This document shows, piece after piece, positions 10,941 through 35,099 of a stretch of DNA of 64,000 bases (within the stretch, counting starts at the first letter, position 1; every line of letters starts with the position of its first letter). A model generated the notes under the pieces. That model was given only the letters and a program-made list of their open reading frames with translations. It was not told where the DNA came from and searched no databases. Source of the stretch: Sneathiella sp. P13V-1 (GTDB taxonomy: Bacteria > Pseudomonadota > Alphaproteobacteria > Sneathiellales > Sneathiellaceae). Made by a program: the position numbers and the translations under genes. The stretch lies in contig NZ_WYEU01000005.1 in NCBI RefSeq assembly GCF_015143595.1, positions 62,001 through 126,000 on the forward strand, read 5' to 3'.

Positions 10941-11927
10941 TCATCCCCACAGTGCCTTACTTGGTGGATGCATCACGCTACCATCAAAGAAAATCCCCTC
11001 TGGGCGGTCCTTATCAAGAAGTAAAGGGCCGTCCAGATCGACATATCTGGCGTAACCCCCAATATACACCGCAGGAGCCATTCCAAGACTGGTTCCGAGC
11101 ATACAGCCTACCATTATGCCAAGTCCAAATTCCCGCGCGGCTTCCACCAACTGCAGAGCCTCCGTAAGGCCGCCTGTTTTATCCAGCTTGATATTGATGA
11201 AGTCATAATTACTTGCGACGAAATCAAGGCTGGACGTGTCGTGACAACTTTCGTCTGCGCAGATCGGAACAAGCCTATCAATCTCGCCGAGTATGGCATC
11301 TTCACCCGCAGGTAAAGGCTGTTCGATCATTTCAACGCCGCAATCAGCCATATGGGGAAGAAATGCCTTGATCATGTCCTCACTCCACGCCTCATTAGCA
11401 TCCACAATTAGCCGTGAGTTCGGGGCCGCAGCACGAATAGCTTTTACTCGGTCGACATCTTCTGCACCACCAAGTTTGAGCTTGAGCAGGGGACGGTTAG
11501 AGTTTTCTGCAGCGGCCGCCGCCATTTTGTCGGCTGTATCCAAAGACAGGGTATAGGCGGTGATTAAAGGTCCTGGAGGGGAAATTCCGGCCAGTTCAGC
11601 GATGGATTGACCGGTTTTTTTCGCTTCCAGATCCCAAAGGGCGCAATCAACCGCATTCCTGGCTGCCCCGGACGGAAGCAGAGTTAAGAGATCAATTCGG
11701 CTTGCGCCATGCGCGATGGCCTCTTTGACAGTAGAAAGTTGGCCCTTAACAGAGGAGGGAGTTTCCCCATAGCGCCGATAGGGAACGCATTCACCGCGTC
11801 CAATGAAATCCCCTTCCTGAATTTCCACGACGACGACATCGGCTGTGGTTTTTGCACCTCGGCTAATGCGAAAGCTGCCCCGGATAGGCCAGCTTTCTTC
11901 TGTGTAGTTGAACTTTCTAAGAGTCAT
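10941..11927 (-). CDS. dgcA: N-acetyl-D-glutamate racemase DgcA (dipeptide epimerase-like, enolase superfamily)
   Basis: Enolase-superfamily enzyme of the muconate lactonizing/dipeptide epimerase type. Acid-base Lys of KLKLGG, metal ligands in DANEAWS, EQPLP and ADESCH, and the second Lys in KLDKTGG are all present. Overlapping the upstream DUF1611 gene by TAATG matches the dgcN-dgcA pair described from marine Proteobacteria, in which DgcN acetylates D-glutamate and DgcA converts N-acetyl-D-Glu to N-acetyl-L-Glu. Without that context it would be annotated as L-Ala-D/L-Glu epimerase. Confidence 0.82.
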   Translation of the reverse strand: MTLRKFNYTEESWPIRGSFRISRGAKTTADVVVVEIQEGDFIGRGECVPYRRYGETPSSVKGQLSTVKEAIAHGASRIDLLTLLPSGAARNAVDCALWDLEAKKTGQSIAELAGISPPGPLITAYTLSLDTADKMAAAAAENSNRPLLKLKLGGAEDVDRVKAIRAAAPNSRLIVDANEAWSEDMIKAFLPHMADCGVEMIEQPLPAGEDAILGEIDRLVPICADESCHDTSSLDFVASNYDFINIKLDKTGGLTEALQLVEAAREFGLGIMVGCMLGTSLGMAPAVYIGGYARYVDLDGPLLLDKDRPEGIFFDGSVMHPPSKALWG

Positions 11928-12937
11928 TACAGATTATCTACTATTTTTGCGACACCTGTTCTGAAGGCGTCCACGGTAGGAAGTCCGTATTTTTGCTCGA
12001 AATCGGCAAGCATTTTGTCACCATCTTCCTCTGACAACCCTGAGGTGTTAATGCTGATCCCAACGAATTTGGCATTCGGATTGGTCAGTTTTGCCGTTTG
12101 CAAGTTCAGGTCCATGCATTCCTGAATATCTGGAAGGGGTTGATGGGGTAGGCCGCGCATATGTGTTCGGGTTGGTTCATGGCAAAGCACAAGCGCATCA
12201 GCCTGCGCACCGTGAATAAGGCCAATACTCACTCCAGCAAAAGAAGGGTGGAACAAGGATCCCTGACCTTCAATAATATCCCAATGATCGTCAGTGTTAT
12301 CTGGGGATAAGACTTCAACAGCACCCGAGATAAAATCGGCAACCACGGCATCGATGGAAATACCTTCACCCGCGATGAAAATGCCCGTCTGACCCGTTGC
12401 ACGGAAATCAGCGTTCATGCCCCGCTTTTTCATTTCCTTTTCAATGGCAAGAGTTGTGTACATCTTACCGACAGAACAATCAGTACCAACCGCGAGCAAA
12501 CGTTTGCCACCGCGAGGGGTTCCCTTGCCGGTAGGCAATTCTTCGGTTGGATGGCGTACATCATACAAGTTGCGCCCATATTTTTCGGCAGCTTCCGCAA
12601 GTTCAGGAATGTTCCCAAGTCGAATGTGAAGGCCACTTGCGATATCCATGCCGAGAGCCATTGCTTCAACGATTTTTGTTGTCCAATGCTCAGGTAGAAA
12701 ACCACCGGAATTTACGATGCCAATTACCATGGTTTTGACACCGCGATTTACCGCCTCTTCCAAAGAAATATCTTCAAGCCCAAGATCTGCCTGACATCCT
12801 TCAAGCCGCATTTGACCAGCACACCAATCTGGACGCCAATCTTTGATCCCTTGTGCGGTTTTTGCACCCAGTTGATCCGGGACGTCACCTAAAAACATGA
12901 GATAAGGATGTTCCATATTTAACCTCTTGAACTTCAA
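11927..12937 (-). CDS. dgcN: N-acetyltransferase DgcN (DUF1611)
   Basis: A 336 aa DUF1611 protein. A P-loop-like segment GTDCSVGKMYTTL lies near residue 155, in the C-terminal domain, and HPTEELPTGKGTPRGGKR precedes it. In the D-glutamate pathway of marine bacteria DgcN transfers an acetyl group to D-glutamate; the assignment here rests on the DUF1611 family and on the directly overlapping dgcA. The gene follows a gamma-carbonic anhydrase gene by 14 bases, so three genes form the operon. Confidence 0.82.
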   Translation of the reverse strand: MKFKRLNMEHPYLMFLGDVPDQLGAKTAQGIKDWRPDWCAGQMRLEGCQADLGLEDISLEEAVNRGVKTMVIGIVNSGGFLPEHWTTKIVEAMALGMDIASGLHIRLGNIPELAEAAEKYGRNLYDVRHPTEELPTGKGTPRGGKRLLAVGTDCSVGKMYTTLAIEKEMKKRGMNADFRATGQTGIFIAGEGISIDAVVADFISGAVEVLSPDNTDDHWDIIEGQGSLFHPSFAGVSIGLIHGAQADALVLCHEPTRTHMRGLPHQPLPDIQECMDLNLQTAKLTNPNAKFVGISINTSGLSEEDGDKMLADFEQKYGLPTVDAFRTGVAKIVDNL

Positions 12938-15604: not shown

Positions 15605-15623
15605 TGTTTCATAAAATGAAACA
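15605..15623. promoter_or_regulatory. Inverted repeat, candidate RpiR-type operator
   Basis: A perfect inverted repeat TGTTTCAT-AAA-ATGAAACA stands about 80 bases before the RpiR-family regulator gene. Half-sites of the TGAAAC type are common for MurR/RpiR regulators. A second short palindrome (AATGA-A-TCATT, 15623-15633) overlaps its edge, and a third (AGGTAG-T-CTACCT, 15656-15668) follows. Autoregulation and control of the downstream operon are inferred. Confidence 0.55.
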
Positions 15624-15655
15624 ATGAATCATTTGTTGCGTATACTTTGAATAGT

Positions 15656-15668
15656 AGGTAGTCTACCT
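15656..15668. promoter_or_regulatory. Short perfect palindrome in the RpiR promoter region
   Basis: AGGTAG-T-CTACCT lies about 37 bases before the ATG of the regulator gene, just after a TATACT box at 15641-15646 that could be a -10 element. It would overlap the transcription start. It could be an operator or part of the 5' leader; the function is inferred only from position and symmetry. Confidence 0.35.
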
Positions 15669-15704
15669 GAGTAATTTCTCTTTTGGGGAGGCGGGTCGCA
15701 GGTC

Positions 15705-16580
15705 ATGGAACGCCGGCAGGGTTCAGATATATTGCGTGAAATCGAAGGGCGATACGGGGGGCTCAGTCCACAATTGCAGATGGGAGCTCGCTTTATCTTG
15801 GATTCCCCGCGGGATGTTGCTGTGTATTCAATGAGAGAGATCGCAGCACGTGCTGATGTAAAACCGTCCACCATGGTGCGGCTCGCCAATAAACTGGGTT
15901 TCGATAATTATGTTGAACTGCGGGATGAGTTTCGTCGTCGTTATTCAGAGCAATCCAGCGGATATGCGGCACGCGCAAGACGTTTGCAGCTTAGAAATGT
16001 TGGAGATGAAGATAGTCTGATTGCCGACATGATGGGTGCTGAAGTCAGCAATATTCAAAATACATTATCTGGTTTTGATGATACGGATCTGGAGGCGGCA
16101 GCGCGTAATTTCTTGAACGCCAGACGGGTTCATGTTGTTGGACTTAGAAAATGTTATCCGATTGCCCATTTTTTCAAATATGCCACTCGTGTTTTCTTTA
16201 AAGATTGCCGACTGATTCAAGGTAACGCGGGCATGTTCCCTGAAGAAATGGAGCAAATAGGGAGAGATGATATTCTTCTTGCTGCTGCCTTTGATCCTTA
16301 TACTCGTGAGACGGTTGAAGCAGTGCGATATGCGCAGAAGGTTGGCGCGAAAACTGTTGTTATTACGGACAATACAGTTTCTCCTTTGGCTGCGGGGGCT
16401 ACGCATTTGTTCGTTGCCGCGAATGCGAGCCCTTCATTTTATCGTTCATTAAGCGGCGCGCTTATTATCGTCCAGGCACTTGTTGCTGCAATCGTTACAG
16501 CATTGGGTGAGCCGGCTGTTGAGGCGCTGGAGCAGTCAGACAAGGGCCTGCGTCGAAACAATACATATTGGAATGGTTAG
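15705..16580 (+). CDS. MurR/RpiR family transcriptional regulator
   Basis: A 291 aa protein with an N-terminal HTH_6 domain (about residues 10-85; SMREIAARADVKPSTMVRLANKLGFDNY) and a C-terminal SIS domain (about 135-260). SIS domains bind phosphosugars in classical members, but many RpiR-type regulators control amino acid or taurine-like catabolism. It starts an operon with an aminotransferase gene 12 bases downstream and is therefore the likely local regulator of the island. Confidence 0.88.
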   Translation: MERRQGSDILREIEGRYGGLSPQLQMGARFILDSPRDVAVYSMREIAARADVKPSTMVRLANKLGFDNYVELRDEFRRRYSEQSSGYAARARRLQLRNVGDEDSLIADMMGAEVSNIQNTLSGFDDTDLEAAARNFLNARRVHVVGLRKCYPIAHFFKYATRVFFKDCRLIQGNAGMFPEEMEQIGRDDILLAAAFDPYTRETVEAVRYAQKVGAKTVVITDNTVSPLAAGATHLFVAANASPSFYRSLSGALIIVQALVAAIVTALGEPAVEALEQSDKGLRRNNTYWNG

Positions 16581-16592
16581 GACCATAAAATC

Positions 16593-17930
16593 ATGACACA
16601 TGTTTTTCACAGGGCGCTAAACAAAACCTACCCCGTCGCGGATAGAGGGGAAGGGGCCTATATTTTTGACACAACCGGTAAAAAATATCTGGATGCTTGC
16701 GGCGGGGCCGCGGTGTCATGTCTTGGTCATAGCAATCACGAGGTTTCTGACGCGATCCGGGCTCAGCTTGATAAGATAGCGTTCGCTCATACAGGGTTTT
16801 TCTCGAACCCAGCGATGGAGGAACTTGCGGATTTCTTGATCGAGAAAGCGCCGGGGGAACTGGATAAAGTGTACTTTGTGTCAGGTGGGTCCGAAGCAGT
16901 AGAGGCTGCTTTGAAACTTGCACGCCAGTACTTTTTGGAAATTGGGCAATCTTCGCGAACACGCTTTATCTCGCGAAAGCAAAGCTATCATGGAAATACA
17001 CTTGGTGCTCTGTCTGCGGGTGGAAATGAATGGCGCCGCGAACCATATGCTGAACTCTTGATGCCGGTTAAACTCATTTCCCCTTGCTATGAATACCGGG
17101 AGCGCCTCGAAGGGGAGAGTGAGTTTGACTTTGGTCAGCGTGTTGCAAACGAATTGGACGAAGCCATCAATGAAGCCGGGTCAGAAAACATCTGTGCTTT
17201 TATTTGTGAGCCCGTTGTTGGTGCGACCTTAGGTGCCGTACCAGCCGTGAAAGGGTACTTTAAACGCATCCGTGAAATATGCGATCAGCATGGCATTTTG
17301 CTTATCTTGGATGAAGTCATGTGTGGTATGGGGCGCACAGGAACATTGTTCGCTGTAGAACAGGAAGACATTAATCCTGACATTCTGGTAACAGCAAAAG
17401 GGCTCGGCGCAGGGTATCAACCGGTGGGGGCCATGATGGCAACCAAGACCATTTGCGATACCATCGAAAATGGAAGCGGCTTTTTCCAGCACGGACATAC
17501 CTATATTGGCCATCCTTTGGCTTGCGCAGCATCTCTAGCAGTTCAGAGATATATTCAAAATAATAACCTGCTCGAAAATGTTCAAAAGCTGGGGCAAGAG
17601 TTACATGAAGCGTTGGAGCAAACTTTCGGCCAACATGCCCATATTGGTGATATTCGCGGGCGCGGTTTGTTTAGAGGGCTTGAATTTGTGCAGGACCGCG
17701 AAACCAAAATGCCTTTTGACCCTTCCTTGAAAATAAACGCACGTGTTAAGCAAGCGGCGATGGATGCAGGCTTGATGTGTTACCCCATGGGAGGAACCAT
17801 AGATGGTCGGCGTGGTGATCATGTATTGCTGGCCCCGCCATTTATTCTCACGTCCGATCAGATTGGGGAAATTACAGATAAGCTGTCTACTGCTGTGAAT
17901 ACGGCACTCAACGATGCAGGAGTGGCGTGA
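16593..17930 (+). CDS. Class III pyridoxal-phosphate aminotransferase
   Basis: A 445 aa fold-type I, class III transaminase (omega-amino acid, GABA, beta-alanine or taurine types). The PLP Lys is K269 in TAKGLGAGYQP. Other family marks are SGGSEAVEAALKLAR, SYHGNTLGALS and LILDEVMCGMGRTG. It lies between the RpiR regulator and a BKACE gene (3-base gap), so its keto product is probably the BKACE substrate. A beta-amino acid would give a beta-keto acid, the known BKACE substrate type; this is an inference. Confidence 0.88.
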   Translation: MTHVFHRALNKTYPVADRGEGAYIFDTTGKKYLDACGGAAVSCLGHSNHEVSDAIRAQLDKIAFAHTGFFSNPAMEELADFLIEKAPGELDKVYFVSGGSEAVEAALKLARQYFLEIGQSSRTRFISRKQSYHGNTLGALSAGGNEWRREPYAELLMPVKLISPCYEYRERLEGESEFDFGQRVANELDEAINEAGSENICAFICEPVVGATLGAVPAVKGYFKRIREICDQHGILLILDEVMCGMGRTGTLFAVEQEDINPDILVTAKGLGAGYQPVGAMMATKTICDTIENGSGFFQHGHTYIGHPLACAASLAVQRYIQNNNLLENVQKLGQELHEALEQTFGQHAHIGDIRGRGLFRGLEFVQDRETKMPFDPSLKINARVKQAAMDAGLMCYPMGGTIDGRRGDHVLLAPPFILTSDQIGEITDKLSTAVNTALNDAGVA

Positions 17931-17933
17931 GTT

Positions 17934-18743
17934 ATGGACCCCTTGTTTATCACTGTGGCGCCCAATGGGGCGCGGAAGACAAAAAAAGATCACCCGGCGA
18001 TCCCGATAACACCGGAAGAGTTGGCTGTAGAGGCCCGAAGTTGTCTTGAGGCCGGGGCCTCGATGATTCATTTGCATGTGAGGGATGACAATGAAGGTCA
18101 TTCATTGGATGTAGGCCGGTATCGAGCTGCTATGGAAGCAATCCAGGAAAGTTGCGGGAATGGAATATTGATACAGGCGACGACCGAAGCCGTGGGGATT
18201 TACGATGCTGATGCACAAATGGCGATGGTTCGGGAACTAAACCCACCATCTGCGTCTGTTGCTATCCGCGAGTTGGTCACCCCTGGTGACGAAGACAAAG
18301 CCACCGCTTTTTTCCATGAAATGACAGAAGAAGGCGTTCTTCTGCAATATATCTTATATTCTGATGAAGATGTTCGATGGTTCCACGACTTGCGGGATCG
18401 GAATATTGTGCCGCAAAGAAAGGCGCTGCTTCTCTATGTTTTGGGTAGATACACAAAGGGGCAAGTGTCAGATCCAAAAGATATTGTTCCTTTCCTGCAA
18501 GTTACCAAGGAAGAAGATGTCTGGGCGGTTTGTGCATTTGGCGAAAACGAACATTTGGCAGCAGGTGCCGCTGCTGCGATGGGCGGACATGTCCGGGTTG
18601 GATTTGAAAATAACTTCCTGACGAGAGGCAAAGCCCTGGCCAGAAGCAATGCCGATTTAGTTCGCCAAGTGGCGGAAGTATCTCGCGCTCTTGGCCGCCC
18701 ATTGGGAAGTGCTGCTGAGCTTAGAGAAATTGTATTTACATAA
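17934..18743 (+). CDS. BKACE family beta-keto acid cleavage enzyme (DUF849, Kce-like)
   Basis: Zinc enzyme of the 3-keto-5-aminohexanoate cleavage (Kce) family, which condenses a beta-keto acid with acetyl-CoA to give acetoacetate and a new acyl-CoA. The metal motif H46-x-H48 in MIHLHVRD matches the Kce zinc His pair, and E225 in VGFENN fits the third ligand. The family accepts many beta-keto acids, so lysine fermentation is not implied; no kdd, kal or kamA is seen. It is translationally close to the aminotransferase. Confidence 0.87.
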   Translation: MDPLFITVAPNGARKTKKDHPAIPITPEELAVEARSCLEAGASMIHLHVRDDNEGHSLDVGRYRAAMEAIQESCGNGILIQATTEAVGIYDADAQMAMVRELNPPSASVAIRELVTPGDEDKATAFFHEMTEEGVLLQYILYSDEDVRWFHDLRDRNIVPQRKALLLYVLGRYTKGQVSDPKDIVPFLQVTKEEDVWAVCAFGENEHLAAGAAAAMGGHVRVGFENNFLTRGKALARSNADLVRQVAEVSRALGRPLGSAAELREIVFT

Positions 18744-18921
18744 TAATTTTTCAGTTTTTCGATTGCACGTATAAGACGCTGTGCATTCGATTTGAAATTT
18801 CCATTTTTCTAATGAAGTAAATGGAGATAGACTTTCTGGAGTAGTACCGGGAAGAACTTAAGAAGCAGGGAGAGATGCGAAGCTATTTCCCTGATTTGAT
18901 TGACAGGTTGAGGAGAAACAA

Positions 18922-19896
18922 ATGAGAAAAGTATTTTCCGTAGCAGCTACAGCAGCTGTTGCTTTGGGCGGTGCGATGATCGTATCAGCACCGGCTCAGG
19001 CAGAAAAATTCATTACAATCGGTACTGGCGGGCAAACTGGTGTTTATTACCAGGTTGGTGGTGCAATTTGTAAACTCGTAAATCGCGGTACAAAAAACCA
19101 CGACATCAAGTGTACACACACAACAGGTGGTTCCACGAAAAACATCAATGGTATTCAGGCTGGTGATCTGGATATGGGGGTTGCACAGTCTGACTGGCAG
19201 TATCACGCCTACAACGGAACAGCTCCAAAGCAGTTCCCAAAAGGGGCTTTTAAAGAGCTTCGCGCTGTATTCTCTGTTCACCCAGAGCCGTTTACAGTGG
19301 TTGCACGTGCCGATTCCGGCATCGCAAAATTTGAAGACCTTAAAGGCAAGCGCGTGAACGTGGGTAATCCAGGTTCTGGTCAGCGCGGCACAATGGAAGT
19401 TGTTATGGAAAAAATGGGTTGGAAAATGGGCGACTTCGCTCTTGCTTCCGAACTGAAATCTTCCGAACATTCTGCTGCACTTTGCGATAACAAAATAGAT
19501 GCGTTCGTGTTCACTGTTGGCCACCCAACAGGTAACATAAAAGAAGCGGCCTCTACATGTGATGTGCGCCTGATCCCTGTTGAAGGCGCTGCGATTGATG
19601 CACTTGTCAATGAAAATGCCTATTATGCAAAAACATCTATTAAAGGTGGCATGTATAAAGGTACGGATGCAGACACACCTGTGTTCGGTGTTGGTGCGAC
19701 ATTTGTATCTTCCACAAAAACTGACGACGACACAGTTTATGAAATTGTAAAAGCTGTGTTCGAAAACTTTGATCGTTTCAAGAAAATGCACCCAGCATTT
19801 GCGAACCTGAAGAAAGACGCGATGATCAAGAACAACCTGTCTGCACCGCTGCACCCAGGCGCTGTTCGCTACTACAAAGAAGCAGGCCTTATGTAA
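18922..19896 (+). CDS. TAXI family TRAP transporter substrate-binding protein
   Basis: Periplasmic receptor of a TRAP-TAXI transporter, 324 aa. A signal peptide ends after AQA at about residue 28. The TAXI signature GTGGQTGVYYQVGGAICKLVNR lies right behind it, split here by a disulfide-capable Cys, followed by TTGGSTKNINGI. It precedes the fused TRAP permease gene, from which it is separated by an intrinsic terminator. The ligand is unknown; context suggests the aminotransferase substrate. A ribosome site GAGGAG precedes the ATG. Confidence 0.93.
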   Translation: MRKVFSVAATAAVALGGAMIVSAPAQAEKFITIGTGGQTGVYYQVGGAICKLVNRGTKNHDIKCTHTTGGSTKNINGIQAGDLDMGVAQSDWQYHAYNGTAPKQFPKGAFKELRAVFSVHPEPFTVVARADSGIAKFEDLKGKRVNVGNPGSGQRGTMEVVMEKMGWKMGDFALASELKSSEHSAALCDNKIDAFVFTVGHPTGNIKEAASTCDVRLIPVEGAAIDALVNENAYYAKTSIKGGMYKGTDADTPVFGVGATFVSSTKTDDDTVYEIVKAVFENFDRFKKMHPAFANLKKDAMIKNNLSAPLHPGAVRYYKEAGLM

Positions 19897-19907
19897 GTCT
19901 GTTAGCC

Positions 19908-19940
19908 AAGGCGGGCCGTATCTTACGGCCTGCCTTTTTT
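19908..19940 (+). terminator. Intergenic hairpin between TRAP receptor and permease genes
   Basis: A 13-bp stem (AAGGCGGGCCGTA against TACGGCCTGCCTT, one G-T pair) with a TCT loop and a run of T follows the receptor stop by about a dozen bases. Partial termination or a 3' stabilising hairpin would give more receptor than permease, as is usual for binding-protein transporters. Confidence 0.8.
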
Positions 19941-19990
19941 ATTTATAAGACGACAGGGTAGATTAGGGACGTTAATCAAGGGGGGTACAA

Positions 19991-22819
19991 ATGACGACGA
20001 AAACTGATGGACCGCTGAGTAATGAGGAACTAGAAGATCTCGTTGCTTCGACGGATACCGGTGGCAGGTCACCCGATAACAGAAATATTGCCTTGCTTAT
20101 GGCTGGTGTGGCGTTGATTTGGTCAATTTGGCAGGTTTGGATCGCCTCACCACTTCCGTATATGATTGGAACCGGTGTATTTTCAGGCCGTGAAGCACGT
20201 CCAATTCATCTTGGCTTTGGCATTTTCCTCGCTTTCCTGGCCTATCCCGCTTTTAGTACTTCCCCAAGATACAGAGTTCCTTTTGCTGACTGGATTTTGG
20301 TAATTGTTGGTACTTTCTGTGCTCTTTATCTCTTTATTTTCGATAGTTCATTTATGAACAGCCTGCTGGGCACTCGCCTCAGCGATCGTCCGGGTGATCC
20401 AAACAGCTTCGATATCATTGTGGCAACTGTCGGCATGATTATGTTGCTGGAAGCGACACGCCGTGCACTAGGTCCACCATTGATGGTGGTGGCTATTGTC
20501 TTCTTGATCTACACATTCCTGGGTCCATATGCACCGGGTTTCCTTGCCTGGAAAGGGGCCAGCTTCGGTGCGGTCGCCGATCATCAGTGGCTTTCGTCCG
20601 AAGGGGTGTTCGGCATTGCACTTGGCGTCTCCACAAGTCTTGTATTCCTGTTTGTCCTGTTCGGTGCACTGTTGGATAAAGCAGGTGCAGGTAACTACTT
20701 CATCAAAGTAGCTTTCTCGTTGATGGGGCATATGCGGGGTGGTCCTGCGAAAGCGGCGGTTGTGGCATCTGGCATGACCGGTTTGATTTCAGGATCTTCC
20801 ATCGCAAATGTGGTGACAACAGGTACCTTTACTATTCCCATGATGAAGCGCGTTGGCTTCTCATCTGAGAAAAGTGGTGCTGTTGAGGTGGCCTCATCCG
20901 TGAACGGACAGATCATGCCACCTGTGATGGGTGCCGCTGCCTTCCTGATGGTTGAATATGTAGATATCAGCTATTTCGAAGTGGTGAAGCATGCCTTTAT
21001 TCCAGCTGTCATCTCTTACATTGCTCTTGTGTATATCGTGCACTTGGAAGCGATGAAAAACGATATGCAGGGTTTGCCGCGTGCTATTGAGCCTAAACCG
21101 TTTAAAACAGCCATGCTCGCGATGGGAATTACAGTTTCATCAATTTTGGTTTTGGCTGGTGGTGCATACTATTTATTCACCTTCTTTGAAGCATTGCAGT
21201 CAACAGGTAATCGCCTGCTGGCGATTGTCATTGTAATGGCAATTGAGGCAGGTCTCTATTTCGGTGTCGTGAAGAAGATAAATGACAAGGCAAAGCTCGC
21301 TTCCATTATCTCAATGGGTGGTATTGTCTTGTGTAATGTGGTGATCGGCGCATTTGGTGTCTTCTATTTAGTTGGGTTAATCACCGAATTGGCCGGGCCA
21401 ACACTTGCCCCTTGGGTTATCGGTGCCGTCATTATTGCGGCATATGTAGGACTTGTTTCTATATGTGCCAAGGTTCCTGATCTGGTGATGGACGATCCGA
21501 ACGCACCGGTTACTGCCCTGCCTGAGCCAAAACCAACCATTTTGGCGGGTCTTCACTTCTTGTTGCCAGTGGGTGTTTTGATCTGGTGCCTGATGATCGA
21601 ACGACTGTCGCCAGAGCTCTCTGCTTTCTGGGCAGTTGCATTGATGATCTTTATCTTGCTTACTCAACGTCAATTGTTTGCTTTCTTCCGAAAAGAAGGG
21701 CAGGCAGGCAAAGTTAAGCAAGGTTTCAACGAGCTGATTGATGGGATGATTTCCGGTGCCCGCAACATGATCGGAATTGCCATTGCGACCGCTGCGGCTG
21801 GAATCATTGTGGGGGCCGTGTCACAAACCGGTGTTGGCTTGGTTCTGGCAGAACTGGTTGAGTTCCTGAGCCAGGGACAAATTCTGTTGATGCTGATCTT
21901 TACGGCGATCCTCAGCTTGATTTTGGGAATGGGCTTGCCAACTACGGCGAACTATATTGTGGTGTCTTCTTTGTTGGCCCCTGTGATTGTAAGCCTTGGA
22001 CAGCAAAGCGGATTGATTGTTCCGCTTATTGCGGTCCATCTATTTGTGTTCTATTTCGGCATTATGGCTGACGTGACACCTCCAGTGGGACTTGCCTCAT
22101 TCGCCGCAGCAGCTGTATCGGGTGGTGATCCCATTCGAACCGGGTTTGTGGCCTTCTTCTATTCCTTGAGAACTGCAATTCTGCCGTTTCTGTTTATCTT
22201 CAACACAGACCTTCTTTTGATTGATGTGACACCACTGGAGGGTGTCTTTGTGTTCATTGTGGCGACGGCAGCCATGTTGCTGTTTACAGCGGGAACGCAA
22301 GGTTACTTCATGGCCAAATCCAAAATCTGGGAATCTGTGATCTTGGTGTTAATCGCCTTTACTTTGTTCCGTCCGGGTTTCTGGATGGATATGATTGTTG
22401 CACCTTACGACAATGAAGCGCCGGTAAAACTTGAAGAAGTTCTGGGTAAGCTAGAAGCGGGTTCTGAACTTCGCCTGATTGTTGAAGGGGAAGATGATGT
22501 TGGCGATCCGCTTACCTTCACAGCTATCTTGCCGGTGGAAGCAGGAGCTTCAGGTAAGGAGAAACTGGAAGCCATTGGTCTGGATCTTCTGATTGAAGAT
22601 GAGGAAGTTATCATTGATAACGCCGCCTTTGACAGTGTCTCGCAAAAAGCAGGGCTGGATTTTGATCAGAAAATCAAAGAGGTGCTTGTACCCGCCAAAC
22701 AGCCTGCAAAGGAATGGCTCTACATTCCCGCACTTTTCATGCTTGGGCTACTTGTACTTATTCAACGTCGCAGGCAGCGCAATGTTCGTCCTACCACGCA
22801 AACTGCTACAGCATCTTAA
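19991..22819 (+). CDS. TRAP transporter fused permease (DctQM type, DUF3394 C-terminus)
   Basis: A 942 aa inner-membrane protein that joins the small (4TM, DctQ-like) and large (DctM-like) TRAP subunits, the normal arrangement in TAXI systems. Hydrophobic segments span about residues 30-800; SGMTGLISGSSIANVVTTG and GMGLPTTANYIV are DctM signatures. The C-terminal soluble part (about 800-905) followed by a final membrane segment and an RRRQR tail matches DUF3394. Transport is driven by the sodium or proton gradient. The preceding GGGG ribosome site is 5 bases from the ATG. Confidence 0.93.
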   Translation: MTTKTDGPLSNEELEDLVASTDTGGRSPDNRNIALLMAGVALIWSIWQVWIASPLPYMIGTGVFSGREARPIHLGFGIFLAFLAYPAFSTSPRYRVPFADWILVIVGTFCALYLFIFDSSFMNSLLGTRLSDRPGDPNSFDIIVATVGMIMLLEATRRALGPPLMVVAIVFLIYTFLGPYAPGFLAWKGASFGAVADHQWLSSEGVFGIALGVSTSLVFLFVLFGALLDKAGAGNYFIKVAFSLMGHMRGGPAKAAVVASGMTGLISGSSIANVVTTGTFTIPMMKRVGFSSEKSGAVEVASSVNGQIMPPVMGAAAFLMVEYVDISYFEVVKHAFIPAVISYIALVYIVHLEAMKNDMQGLPRAIEPKPFKTAMLAMGITVSSILVLAGGAYYLFTFFEALQSTGNRLLAIVIVMAIEAGLYFGVVKKINDKAKLASIISMGGIVLCNVVIGAFGVFYLVGLITELAGPTLAPWVIGAVIIAAYVGLVSICAKVPDLVMDDPNAPVTALPEPKPTILAGLHFLLPVGVLIWCLMIERLSPELSAFWAVALMIFILLTQRQLFAFFRKEGQAGKVKQGFNELIDGMISGARNMIGIAIATAAAGIIVGAVSQTGVGLVLAELVEFLSQGQILLMLIFTAILSLILGMGLPTTANYIVVSSLLAPVIVSLGQQSGLIVPLIAVHLFVFYFGIMADVTPPVGLASFAAAAVSGGDPIRTGFVAFFYSLRTAILPFLFIFNTDLLLIDVTPLEGVFVFIVATAAMLLFTAGTQGYFMAKSKIWESVILVLIAFTLFRPGFWMDMIVAPYDNEAPVKLEEVLGKLEAGSELRLIVEGEDDVGDPLTFTAILPVEAGASGKEKLEAIGLDLLIEDEEVIIDNAAFDSVSQKAGLDFDQKIKEVLVPAKQPAKEWLYIPALFMLGLLVLIQRRRQRNVRPTTQTATAS

Positions 22820-22830
22820 GGGGGTAAGAG

Positions 22831-23259
22831 ATGTTTAAAGACATACTTTTAACAATAGATCTGGAAACAGAAGACTCTTGGAAAAAGACAGTTCCGGAAG
22901 CGGTACAGTATGCCAAGATGTCTGATGCAACCTTGCATGTGATGACTGTTGTCCCAAATTTTGGGATGAGCATTGTTGGTTCCTTCTTCCCAAAAGGGTA
23001 CGAGAAGGAAGTGCTGGAAAAGGCAAACGAACATCTGCATGTGTTCGTGAAAAAGCATATTCCTGATGATATTCGCATTCAGCATGTTGTTGGACATGGC
23101 AATGTTTACGAAGAGATTTTGAGAGTGCAGCAGAAATTGAACTGTGATCTGATTATTCTCGGGGCGCACCGACCTTCTATGCAGGATTATTTGCTCGGAC
23201 CAAATGCGGCGCGGGTTGTCCGTCATGCAGAATGTTCGGTCCTTGTGGTGAGAGATTAG
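22831..23259 (+). CDS. Universal stress protein (UspA family)
   Basis: A 142 aa single USP domain. The C-terminal nucleotide-binding stretch reads LGAHRPSMQDYLLGPNAARVV; it keeps the GPNA part but not the full GxxGx9G pattern, so ATP binding is uncertain. It follows the TRAP permease by 11 bases. In Halomonas the USP TeaD is encoded with the TeaABC TRAP transporter and lowers its activity, so a regulatory role for this transporter is a reasonable guess. Confidence 0.88.
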   Translation: MFKDILLTIDLETEDSWKKTVPEAVQYAKMSDATLHVMTVVPNFGMSIVGSFFPKGYEKEVLEKANEHLHVFVKKHIPDDIRIQHVVGHGNVYEEILRVQQKLNCDLIILGAHRPSMQDYLLGPNAARVVRHAECSVLVVRD

Positions 23260-23271
23260 CAAAATAAAAAA

Positions 23272-23298
23272 GGCCCGGAAATTTCCGGGCCTTTTTTT
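23272..23298. terminator. Bidirectional intrinsic terminator
   Basis: The 20-base perfect palindrome starting GGCCCGGAAA is flanked by A7 on the left and T7 on the right. It closes the TRAP operon on the plus strand and the cytochrome c gene on the minus strand. Confidence 0.9.
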
Positions 23299-34722: not shown

Positions 34723-34779
34723 ACTCTCCCGCCCGCCGTATGATCTCAGGCCTTATGACAAGCATTTTCTCGTCTTTAA

Positions 34780-35032
34780 GTGAGGAGGCTTCTGTTGCCA
34801 GGTGCCTCCCCGAACCCCGTGTAGCTGATTAAGCAGCTACGGCAAATGCTTCATTATCGTTAGCATTTATAAATTTGACCCCGGTAACGGTGGTATCATG
34901 CCGGGCAAAAATTACGTCTTTACTGCGCGCGTCGAACCTATTTCGCCCCCAAAAGAAAGTTTGGTGGAGGCGCCGGGTACCGCCCCCGGGTCCGCAACGT
35001 TTATTCCACGAAACGTTTATTGCCATAGTTGG
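34780..35032 (-). ncRNA. ssrA: tmRNA, circularly permuted two-piece type
   Basis: On the minus strand the acceptor piece comes first: a T-arm (CCGGG stem on both sides) and CGCCTCCACCA ending at 34962. An 11-base A/T-rich loop (34951-34961) is followed by the coding piece starting GGGGGCGAAATAGGTTCGACG at 34950. GGGGGCG pairs with CGCCTCC as the acceptor stem. The tag frame at 34864-34832 encodes ANDNEAFAVAA and ends in TAA inside a GTAGCTG / CAGCTAC hairpin. A GGAGGC / GCCTCC hairpin (34784-34809) closes the piece. The outer ends are approximate. This order is the alphaproteobacterial arrangement. Confidence 0.92.
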
Positions 35033-35099
35033 TTACCCAACGGCCTCAATATAGACATTTGAAAGCGGTTTTAAAAGGGGCTAATCACTCAAGATTTCG

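Follow-up and report, generated by a model that had tools for sequence, protein, structure and literature searches.

We analyzed a 64,000-nucleotide stretch of the genome of Sneathiella sp. P13V-1 (contig NZ_WYEU01000005.1, positions 62,001 to 126,000, hereafter the window), and focused on a unit of six genes in which a TRAP transporter of the TAXI type stands beside an aminotransferase and an enzyme of the BKACE (beta-keto acid cleavage enzyme) fold. The unit spans positions 15705-23259, with all genes on the + strand, and this gene set is an operon present across many bacterial species. The first gene (15705-16580) encodes an RpiR regulator of the MurR/RpiR family, with an HTH_6 and a SIS domain (Pfam, 32.3 and 57.6 bits). 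It is followed by a class III, pyridoxal phosphate-dependent aminotransferase of the PRK07483 type (16593-17930; Aminotran_3, 334 bits), which scores 753.7 bits against NCBIfam NF005685 (cut-off 485) and has 3i4j and 5lh9 as its nearest solved structures. The third gene (17934-18743; Pfam BKACE, 229.6 bits) encodes a BKACE/DUF849-fold enzyme of a divergent subfamily. Then come the genes of a TAXI-type solute receptor with a glutamate pocket (18922-19896; NMT1_3, 289 bits; TIGR02122, TRAP_TAXI, 360 bits), of a fused TRAP permease (19991-22819; DctM, 255 bits; TIGR02123, TRAP_fused, 671 bits) that ends in a DUF3394 domain, the "claw" (residues 752-930, 227.5 bits), and of a universal stress protein (Usp; 22831-23259; Usp, 93.5 bits).

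The genes are separated, in order, by 12, 3, 178, 94, and 11 bases, and all six proteins pass the Pfam cut-offs, the HTH_6 domain of the regulator narrowly (32.3 vs 28.3 bits). Open reading frames, gaps and domain scores thus agree with a preliminary description of the locus, which had named the same families, stressed their tight spacing, and set its start at position 15605, i.e., 100 bases upstream of the RpiR reading frame. A putative terminator-like hairpin with a 13-pair stem and a T-rich tail lies between the receptor and permease genes (19908-19936, + strand) and could favour receptor output over that of the permease. Another putative terminator-like hairpin, of 14 pairs, is found 3' of the Usp gene (23266-23297), where the scan lists the - strand only. 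Overall, 17 terminator-like sites were found in the region (9.7 expected from shuffles), and the scan for promoter-like sites gave 4, for a shuffle mean of 10.1.

The transporter and its probable ligand

The best matches of the receptor in the PDB are the structures of VcGluP from Vibrio cholerae (8s4j/9ibo, ~400 bits). In the available part of its description, VcGluP binds L-glutamate with a dissociation constant of 0.065 µM and D-glutamate with one of 24.5 µM, and its affinity falls 213-fold upon the change Y45A and 990-fold upon Q93A (PMC11574862). The pocket alignment places Y42, S71, Q89, and E122 of the window receptor at Y45, S75, Q93, and E125 of VcGluP, all four of which are kept. The permease adds to this likeness, since the claw is reported there, among 59 modelled TAXI systems, only near VcGluP (PMC11574862, as far as available).

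Genetic evidence comes from Cereibacter sphaeroides. According to the accessible sections of PMC12632250, a TAXI-TRAP pair on its chromosome 2 forms one likely operon with three downstream genes (rsp_1412, rsp_1413, and rsp_3804-3802), and deletion and complementation reveal that Na+-dependent growth on L-glutamate requires the two transporter genes. One of the loci in our collection (L112, genome G290) has an RpiR gene divergent from TAXI, TRAP, Usp, aminotransferase, and BKACE-like genes, in this order, and encodes a receptor with the same residues as the window receptor at all but 2 of 13 pocket sites. This locus very probably comes from C. sphaeroides and fits the operon described on its chromosome 2. 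Given the pocket match with glutamate-specific VcGluP and the L-glutamate genetics, these genes do not add a new ligand to those of TAXI systems, an orphan ligand is unlikely, and the import of a beta-amino acid proposed in the preliminary description is not supported. Judging from its pocket residues and from these two systems, the transporter most likely takes up L-glutamate, perhaps together with close analogues.

Conservation of the gene set

To assess how far the genes stay together, we used a sample of 240 genomes from the class of the window, the Alphaproteobacteria. Aminotransferases had to score over the family cut-off, TAXI receptors to match at E <= 1e-90, and BKACE-like proteins at E <= 1e-60; genes were regarded as close when their starts lay within 10 kb. 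Co-occurrence was evaluated with Fisher tests, which ignore the relatedness of genomes. One species may recur across different locus sets, and 12 of the 37 BKACE-like loci are near-duplicates from Mesorhizobium, which were kept in the locus counts as well as in the DUF849 and receptor alignments.

The aminotransferase was found in 64 genomes, the TAXI receptor in 62, and the BKACE-like protein in 34. Aminotransferase and BKACE-like genes are close to each other in 27 of these 34 genomes, and aminotransferase and TAXI genes in 32 of the 62 TAXI genomes, or of the 42 that hold both; all three are close together in 19 of the 240. The co-location of these genes is not chance. Among the 37 loci obtained from the BKACE-like protein scan, a relative of the aminotransferase is encoded at 27, of TAXI at 23, of TRAP at 23, of Usp at 10, and of RpiR at 19. 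For comparison, 60 aminotransferase loci (of 73 over the cut-off) have a BKACE-like gene nearby in 24 cases, TAXI in 31, TRAP in 28, Usp in 20, and RpiR in 19. The closest named relative found, with the complete set, is a Sneathiella metagenome genome (L003).

The BKACE-like gene is the less constant member. There is no match at E <= 1e-60 in 34 of the 64 aminotransferase genomes, and 11 loci, some on short contigs, have aminotransferase and TAXI genes with no BKACE-like gene nearby; no consistent gene takes its place in these 11. A further 25 aminotransferase loci, mostly devoid of TAXI, have mixed neighbours. Hence, the BKACE-like gene is an optional part of the set. It occurs in 77 of 295 genomes of one family (that of genome G022, apparently Rhodobacteraceae, which includes G290), and 20 of the 80 BKACE-like places in this family hold the aminotransferase in 14 cases and TAXI in 8 (at least 50% identity). 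The expectation that the set is conserved together in relatives is thus borne out by the 19 genomes with all three genes, and fails for the BKACE-like gene in the many genomes that have no match to it.

Gene order varies across these loci. It is the same as in the window on a plasmid of Thalassospira marina, a Paracoccus plasmid has the order TAXI-TRAP-Usp-aminotransferase-BKACE with a divergent RpiR gene, and on a Pseudosulfitobacter plasmid the aminotransferase gene is divergent from TAXI-TRAP-Usp, with no BKACE gene listed in that stretch. At one locus, the RpiR, aminotransferase, TAXI, and TRAP genes are accompanied by pxpA and pxpB, both over their cut-offs, and by a pxpC-like gene (5-oxoprolinase) that reaches the family cut-off and misses that of the PxpC equivalog.

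A non-canonical active site in the DUF849 enzyme

The predicted fold of the DUF849 protein (pLDDT 92.7) is a TIM barrel, with Kce as its best structural match (2y7e; Z 33.7, root-mean-square deviation 2.5 over 263 residues, 32% identity). To compare active sites, we aligned 83 sequences, namely 81 relatives, the window copy, and a paralogue from the same genome, and used the numbering of Kce. The zinc ligands of Kce (H46, H48, and E230) correspond to H46, H48, and E225 in the window protein, and its R226 to R221. These four positions are kept in 83/83 sequences, which suggests that the zinc site is retained. Tyr145 of Kce is Tyr142 in the window protein, which aligns there without gaps, and is a tyrosine in 78 of the 83.

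The window protein is altered at three other positions, with R14 for E14 of Kce, I140 for E143, and N226 for D231. Position 14 is an arginine in 81/83 sequences, a tyrosine in one relative, and an isoleucine in the paralogue. At E143, the position of the base, we found 80 Ile, 1 Leu, and 1 Ser, the paralogue alone having Glu, and D231 is replaced by Asn in 82/82 sequences, with Asp in the paralogue only. Positions 82-85 and N108 of Kce are also changed in the subfamily. We take E14 of Kce to face the amine of the substrate, and D231 to be catalytic.

The function of the base can be traced through BKACE15, where E171 is described as the catalytic base and the change E171L abolishes activity (PMC11961710, available in part). 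Since the accessible part of a preprint equates Tyr173 of BKACE15 with Tyr145 of Kce (PMC12871164), E171 would correspond to E143 of Kce. The same preprint also presents a DUF849 member with divergent chemistry. As the catalytic base is lost to isoleucine and D231 to asparagine, an acetyl-CoA-dependent cleavage by the window enzyme, i.e., the canonical BKACE reaction, is unlikely. Kce of lysine fermentation was considered as an identity and set aside, the protein scoring 150.6 bits against NCBIfam NF052387, below the cut-off of 382. Two of the seven groups of the DUF849 family are relevant here: in the available text of PMC4922564, group G6 is reported not to be BKACE and to be associated with beta-ketoglutarate decarboxylation, and group G7 was inactive on all substrates tried.

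The partners of this subfamily at other loci give further indications. The DUF849 gene adjoins a dehydrogenase gene annotated as of the 3-hydroxyacyl-CoA type on plasmids of Microvirga and of Comamonadaceae, and such a dehydrogenase is encoded some genes away in Skermanella. The Microvirga dehydrogenase has L-carnitine dehydrogenase as its top score, below the cut-off (279 vs 414). At another locus (L113), the DUF849 gene comes after those of a luciferase-like monooxygenase and of a hydrolase just below the PcaD cut-off (245.6 vs 255.85). These partner types, a dehydrogenase and an enol-lactonase-like hydrolase, could supply beta-keto acids. Of the claim that the aminotransferase yields a beta-keto acid, what can be kept is that other DUF849 partners could deliver one as well. 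The arginine in place of E14 and the partners able to make beta-keto acids point to a beta-keto dicarboxylate as the most likely substrate of the DUF849 enzyme.

A divergent DUF849 gene near a luciferase-like monooxygenase gene was also seen at L115, L121, and L035, the family scan covering L113. L115 resembles L113 by eye, and both also carry a flavin reductase and the PcaD-like hydrolase. These loci may encode another, uncharacterised pathway.

Interpretation and alternatives

We propose the following model. In the periplasm, the TAXI receptor would capture L-glutamate, and perhaps also close analogues, for import together with sodium through the permease with its claw. The stress protein probably assists the transporter, and the unit is probably under the control of RpiR. 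The aminotransferase may have a beta-keto dicarboxylate as one partner of its amino-group exchange and an amino acid as the other, and the DUF849 enzyme may decarboxylate or hydrolyse the 3-oxoglutarate-like beta-keto dicarboxylate arising from it. That the unit is an import operon of the L-glutamate type, with the substrate of its enzymes left unfixed, is probable. The enzymatic part, a transaminase acting with a non-canonical DUF849 decarboxylase or hydrolase, is derived from residues and gene neighbourhoods and should be taken as tentative.

Several observations weigh against this model. The window receptor departs from VcGluP by Gly for S40, Gln for D157, Phe for Y200, and Thr for M201. 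In 70 aligned receptors, Gly (56), Gln (38), and Thr (38) are the commonest residues at S40, D157, and M201, and the Y200 site is occupied by Tyr in 46 receptors and by Phe in 17; in VcGluP, the change Y200A lowers affinity only 3.5-fold (PMC11574862, in the part available). If the operon only served the use of plain L-glutamate, the retention of a DUF849 enzyme and of such a class III aminotransferase would be hard to explain. The DUF849 protein may as well belong to group G7 as to G6. The accessible part of PMC12632250 leaves rsp_3804-3802 unnamed, and the equation of G290 with C. sphaeroides is our own. Finally, Aliiroseovarius has TAXI-TRAP-Usp with neither this aminotransferase nor a BKACE gene alongside, and gabT ~6 kb off. 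A search of the Sneathiella genome for a GABA (gamma-aminobutyrate) aminotransferase, made for a comparison of the 2-oxoglutarate site, gave none at E <= 1e-100. In the literature, we found no report joining DUF849 with an aminotransferase and a TRAP transporter, and, judging by titles and the openings of abstracts, no catabolic pathway for beta-glutamate (3-aminoglutarate).

The genes might instead form a shared regulon and not a single pathway. The cell would then take up L-glutamate as a source of amino groups and to balance its nitrogen or osmotic state, and the aminotransferase and the DUF849 enzyme would degrade an unrelated compound. The arrangement in Aliiroseovarius would fit such a regulon, as would that in S. 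meliloti, where TAXI-TRAP and a BKACE-like gene are ~19 kb apart (in an incomplete gene table), the 29 of 60 aminotransferase loci with no TAXI relative nearby (some on short contigs), and the 6 of 20 loci in the family of G022 where DUF849 lacks the aminotransferase. The proximity of TAXI and aminotransferase genes in 32 of the 42 genomes holding both speaks against it, and we regard it as unlikely.

The enzymes might also use beta-glutamate or a similar beta-amino dicarboxylate with the shape of glutamate, which the receptor would take beside L-glutamate, the aminotransferase making 3-oxoglutarate and the DUF849 enzyme converting this to acetoacetate by decarboxylation. 3-Oxoglutarate also decarboxylates spontaneously, so that the absence of a DUF849 match at threshold in the 34 of 64 aminotransferase genomes would be tolerable. 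The glutamate-type pocket, R14 at the position of E14, the partners that could make beta-keto acids, and the decarboxylation reported for group G6 in the available text of PMC4922564 are all consistent with this scenario. However, the DUF849 protein is at most a candidate member of G6, and the strong preference of VcGluP for L- over D-glutamate, as given in the accessible part of PMC11574862, suggests that the beta isomer may not fit. We consider such a use of beta-glutamate quite improbable, and less probable again an operon dedicated to beta-glutamate or beta-amino dicarboxylates, with a TAXI-TRAP system for glutamate isomers, a transaminase, and a BKACE fold putatively switched to decarboxylation. 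The preliminary description's route, from an imported beta-amino acid through transamination to a true BKACE cleavage with acetyl-CoA into acetoacetate and an acyl-CoA, is very unlikely: joint conservation of the genes, the zinc ligands in 83/83 sequences, Tyr145 in 78, and partners that could yield beta-keto acids are in its favour, but the base and D231 are replaced in all 82 sequences bar the paralogue, BKACE15 is inactive with leucine at the base (PMC11961710, in part), and receptor pocket and C. sphaeroides genetics indicate L-glutamate.

Neighbouring and paralogous loci

A pair of genes for D-glutamate catabolism lies close to the operon (10941-12937, - strand): dgcA, for an N-acetyl-D-glutamate racemase (485 bits, cut-off 400), and dgcN (555 bits, cut-off 480). 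The pair has the same surroundings in L003 and in two loci from the genus of the window, L074 and L076, and dgcN was found in just 2 of the 60 aminotransferase loci. The window also contains a tmRNA (transfer-messenger RNA) gene (34738-35054, - strand) with the tag ANDNEAFAVAA.

Elsewhere in the genome, on contig C2, locus L132 (7459-9767) encodes a second class III aminotransferase and the canonical BKACE with both Glu and Asp. By eye, the pair is accompanied by a polyamine-type ABC transporter and by deacetylase-like and FAD oxidase-like reading frames, and at 15-2083 of the same locus a second DUF1611/DgcN-like reading frame is followed by an alanine-racemase-like one. L132 is a better candidate for a beta-keto acid cleavage pathway than the operon of the window.

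Implications

The transporter of the unit is largely explained, and the substrates of the enzyme pair become a testable question, for which a C. sphaeroides mutant background already exists in which their role can be examined directly. A hitherto unexplained aminotransferase/DUF849 pair is now tied to glutamate uptake. The analysis also corrects an automatic annotation, as relatives are called "3-keto-5-aminohexanoate cleavage protein" in database records although the subfamily lacks a residue that this reaction needs. Beta-glutamate is known as an osmolyte. Were it the substrate, the pair would add a degradation route for it, a new catabolic route that would also give a physiological role to the whole DUF849 subfamily.

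Comparison with known systems

The closest known transporter is VcGluPQM of V. cholerae (PDB 8s4j), which has the same type of receptor, with Y45, S75, Q93, and E125, and a fused permease with a DUF3394 claw; the window receptor departs from it at S40, D157, Y200, and M201. The likely operon of C. sphaeroides is the nearest known gene arrangement, the putative locus L112 fitting its published five-gene layout, but its enzymes are encoded 3' of the transporter and those of the window 5'. The DUF849 enzyme shares with BKACE and Kce (2y7d-g; BKACE15, 8rip) the TIM barrel, the zinc ligands, R226, and, in most sequences, Tyr145. It differs from them in that its subfamily lacks E143 and D231, is altered at positions 82-85 and N108, and has R14 in place of E14. 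Finally, cis-epoxysuccinate hydrolase (5zmu/5zmy) is less similar in sequence, with 60.9 bits against the 162 bits of Kce. It has the same fold (Z 30.5) and is named as a dicarboxylate hydrolase rather than a BKACE.

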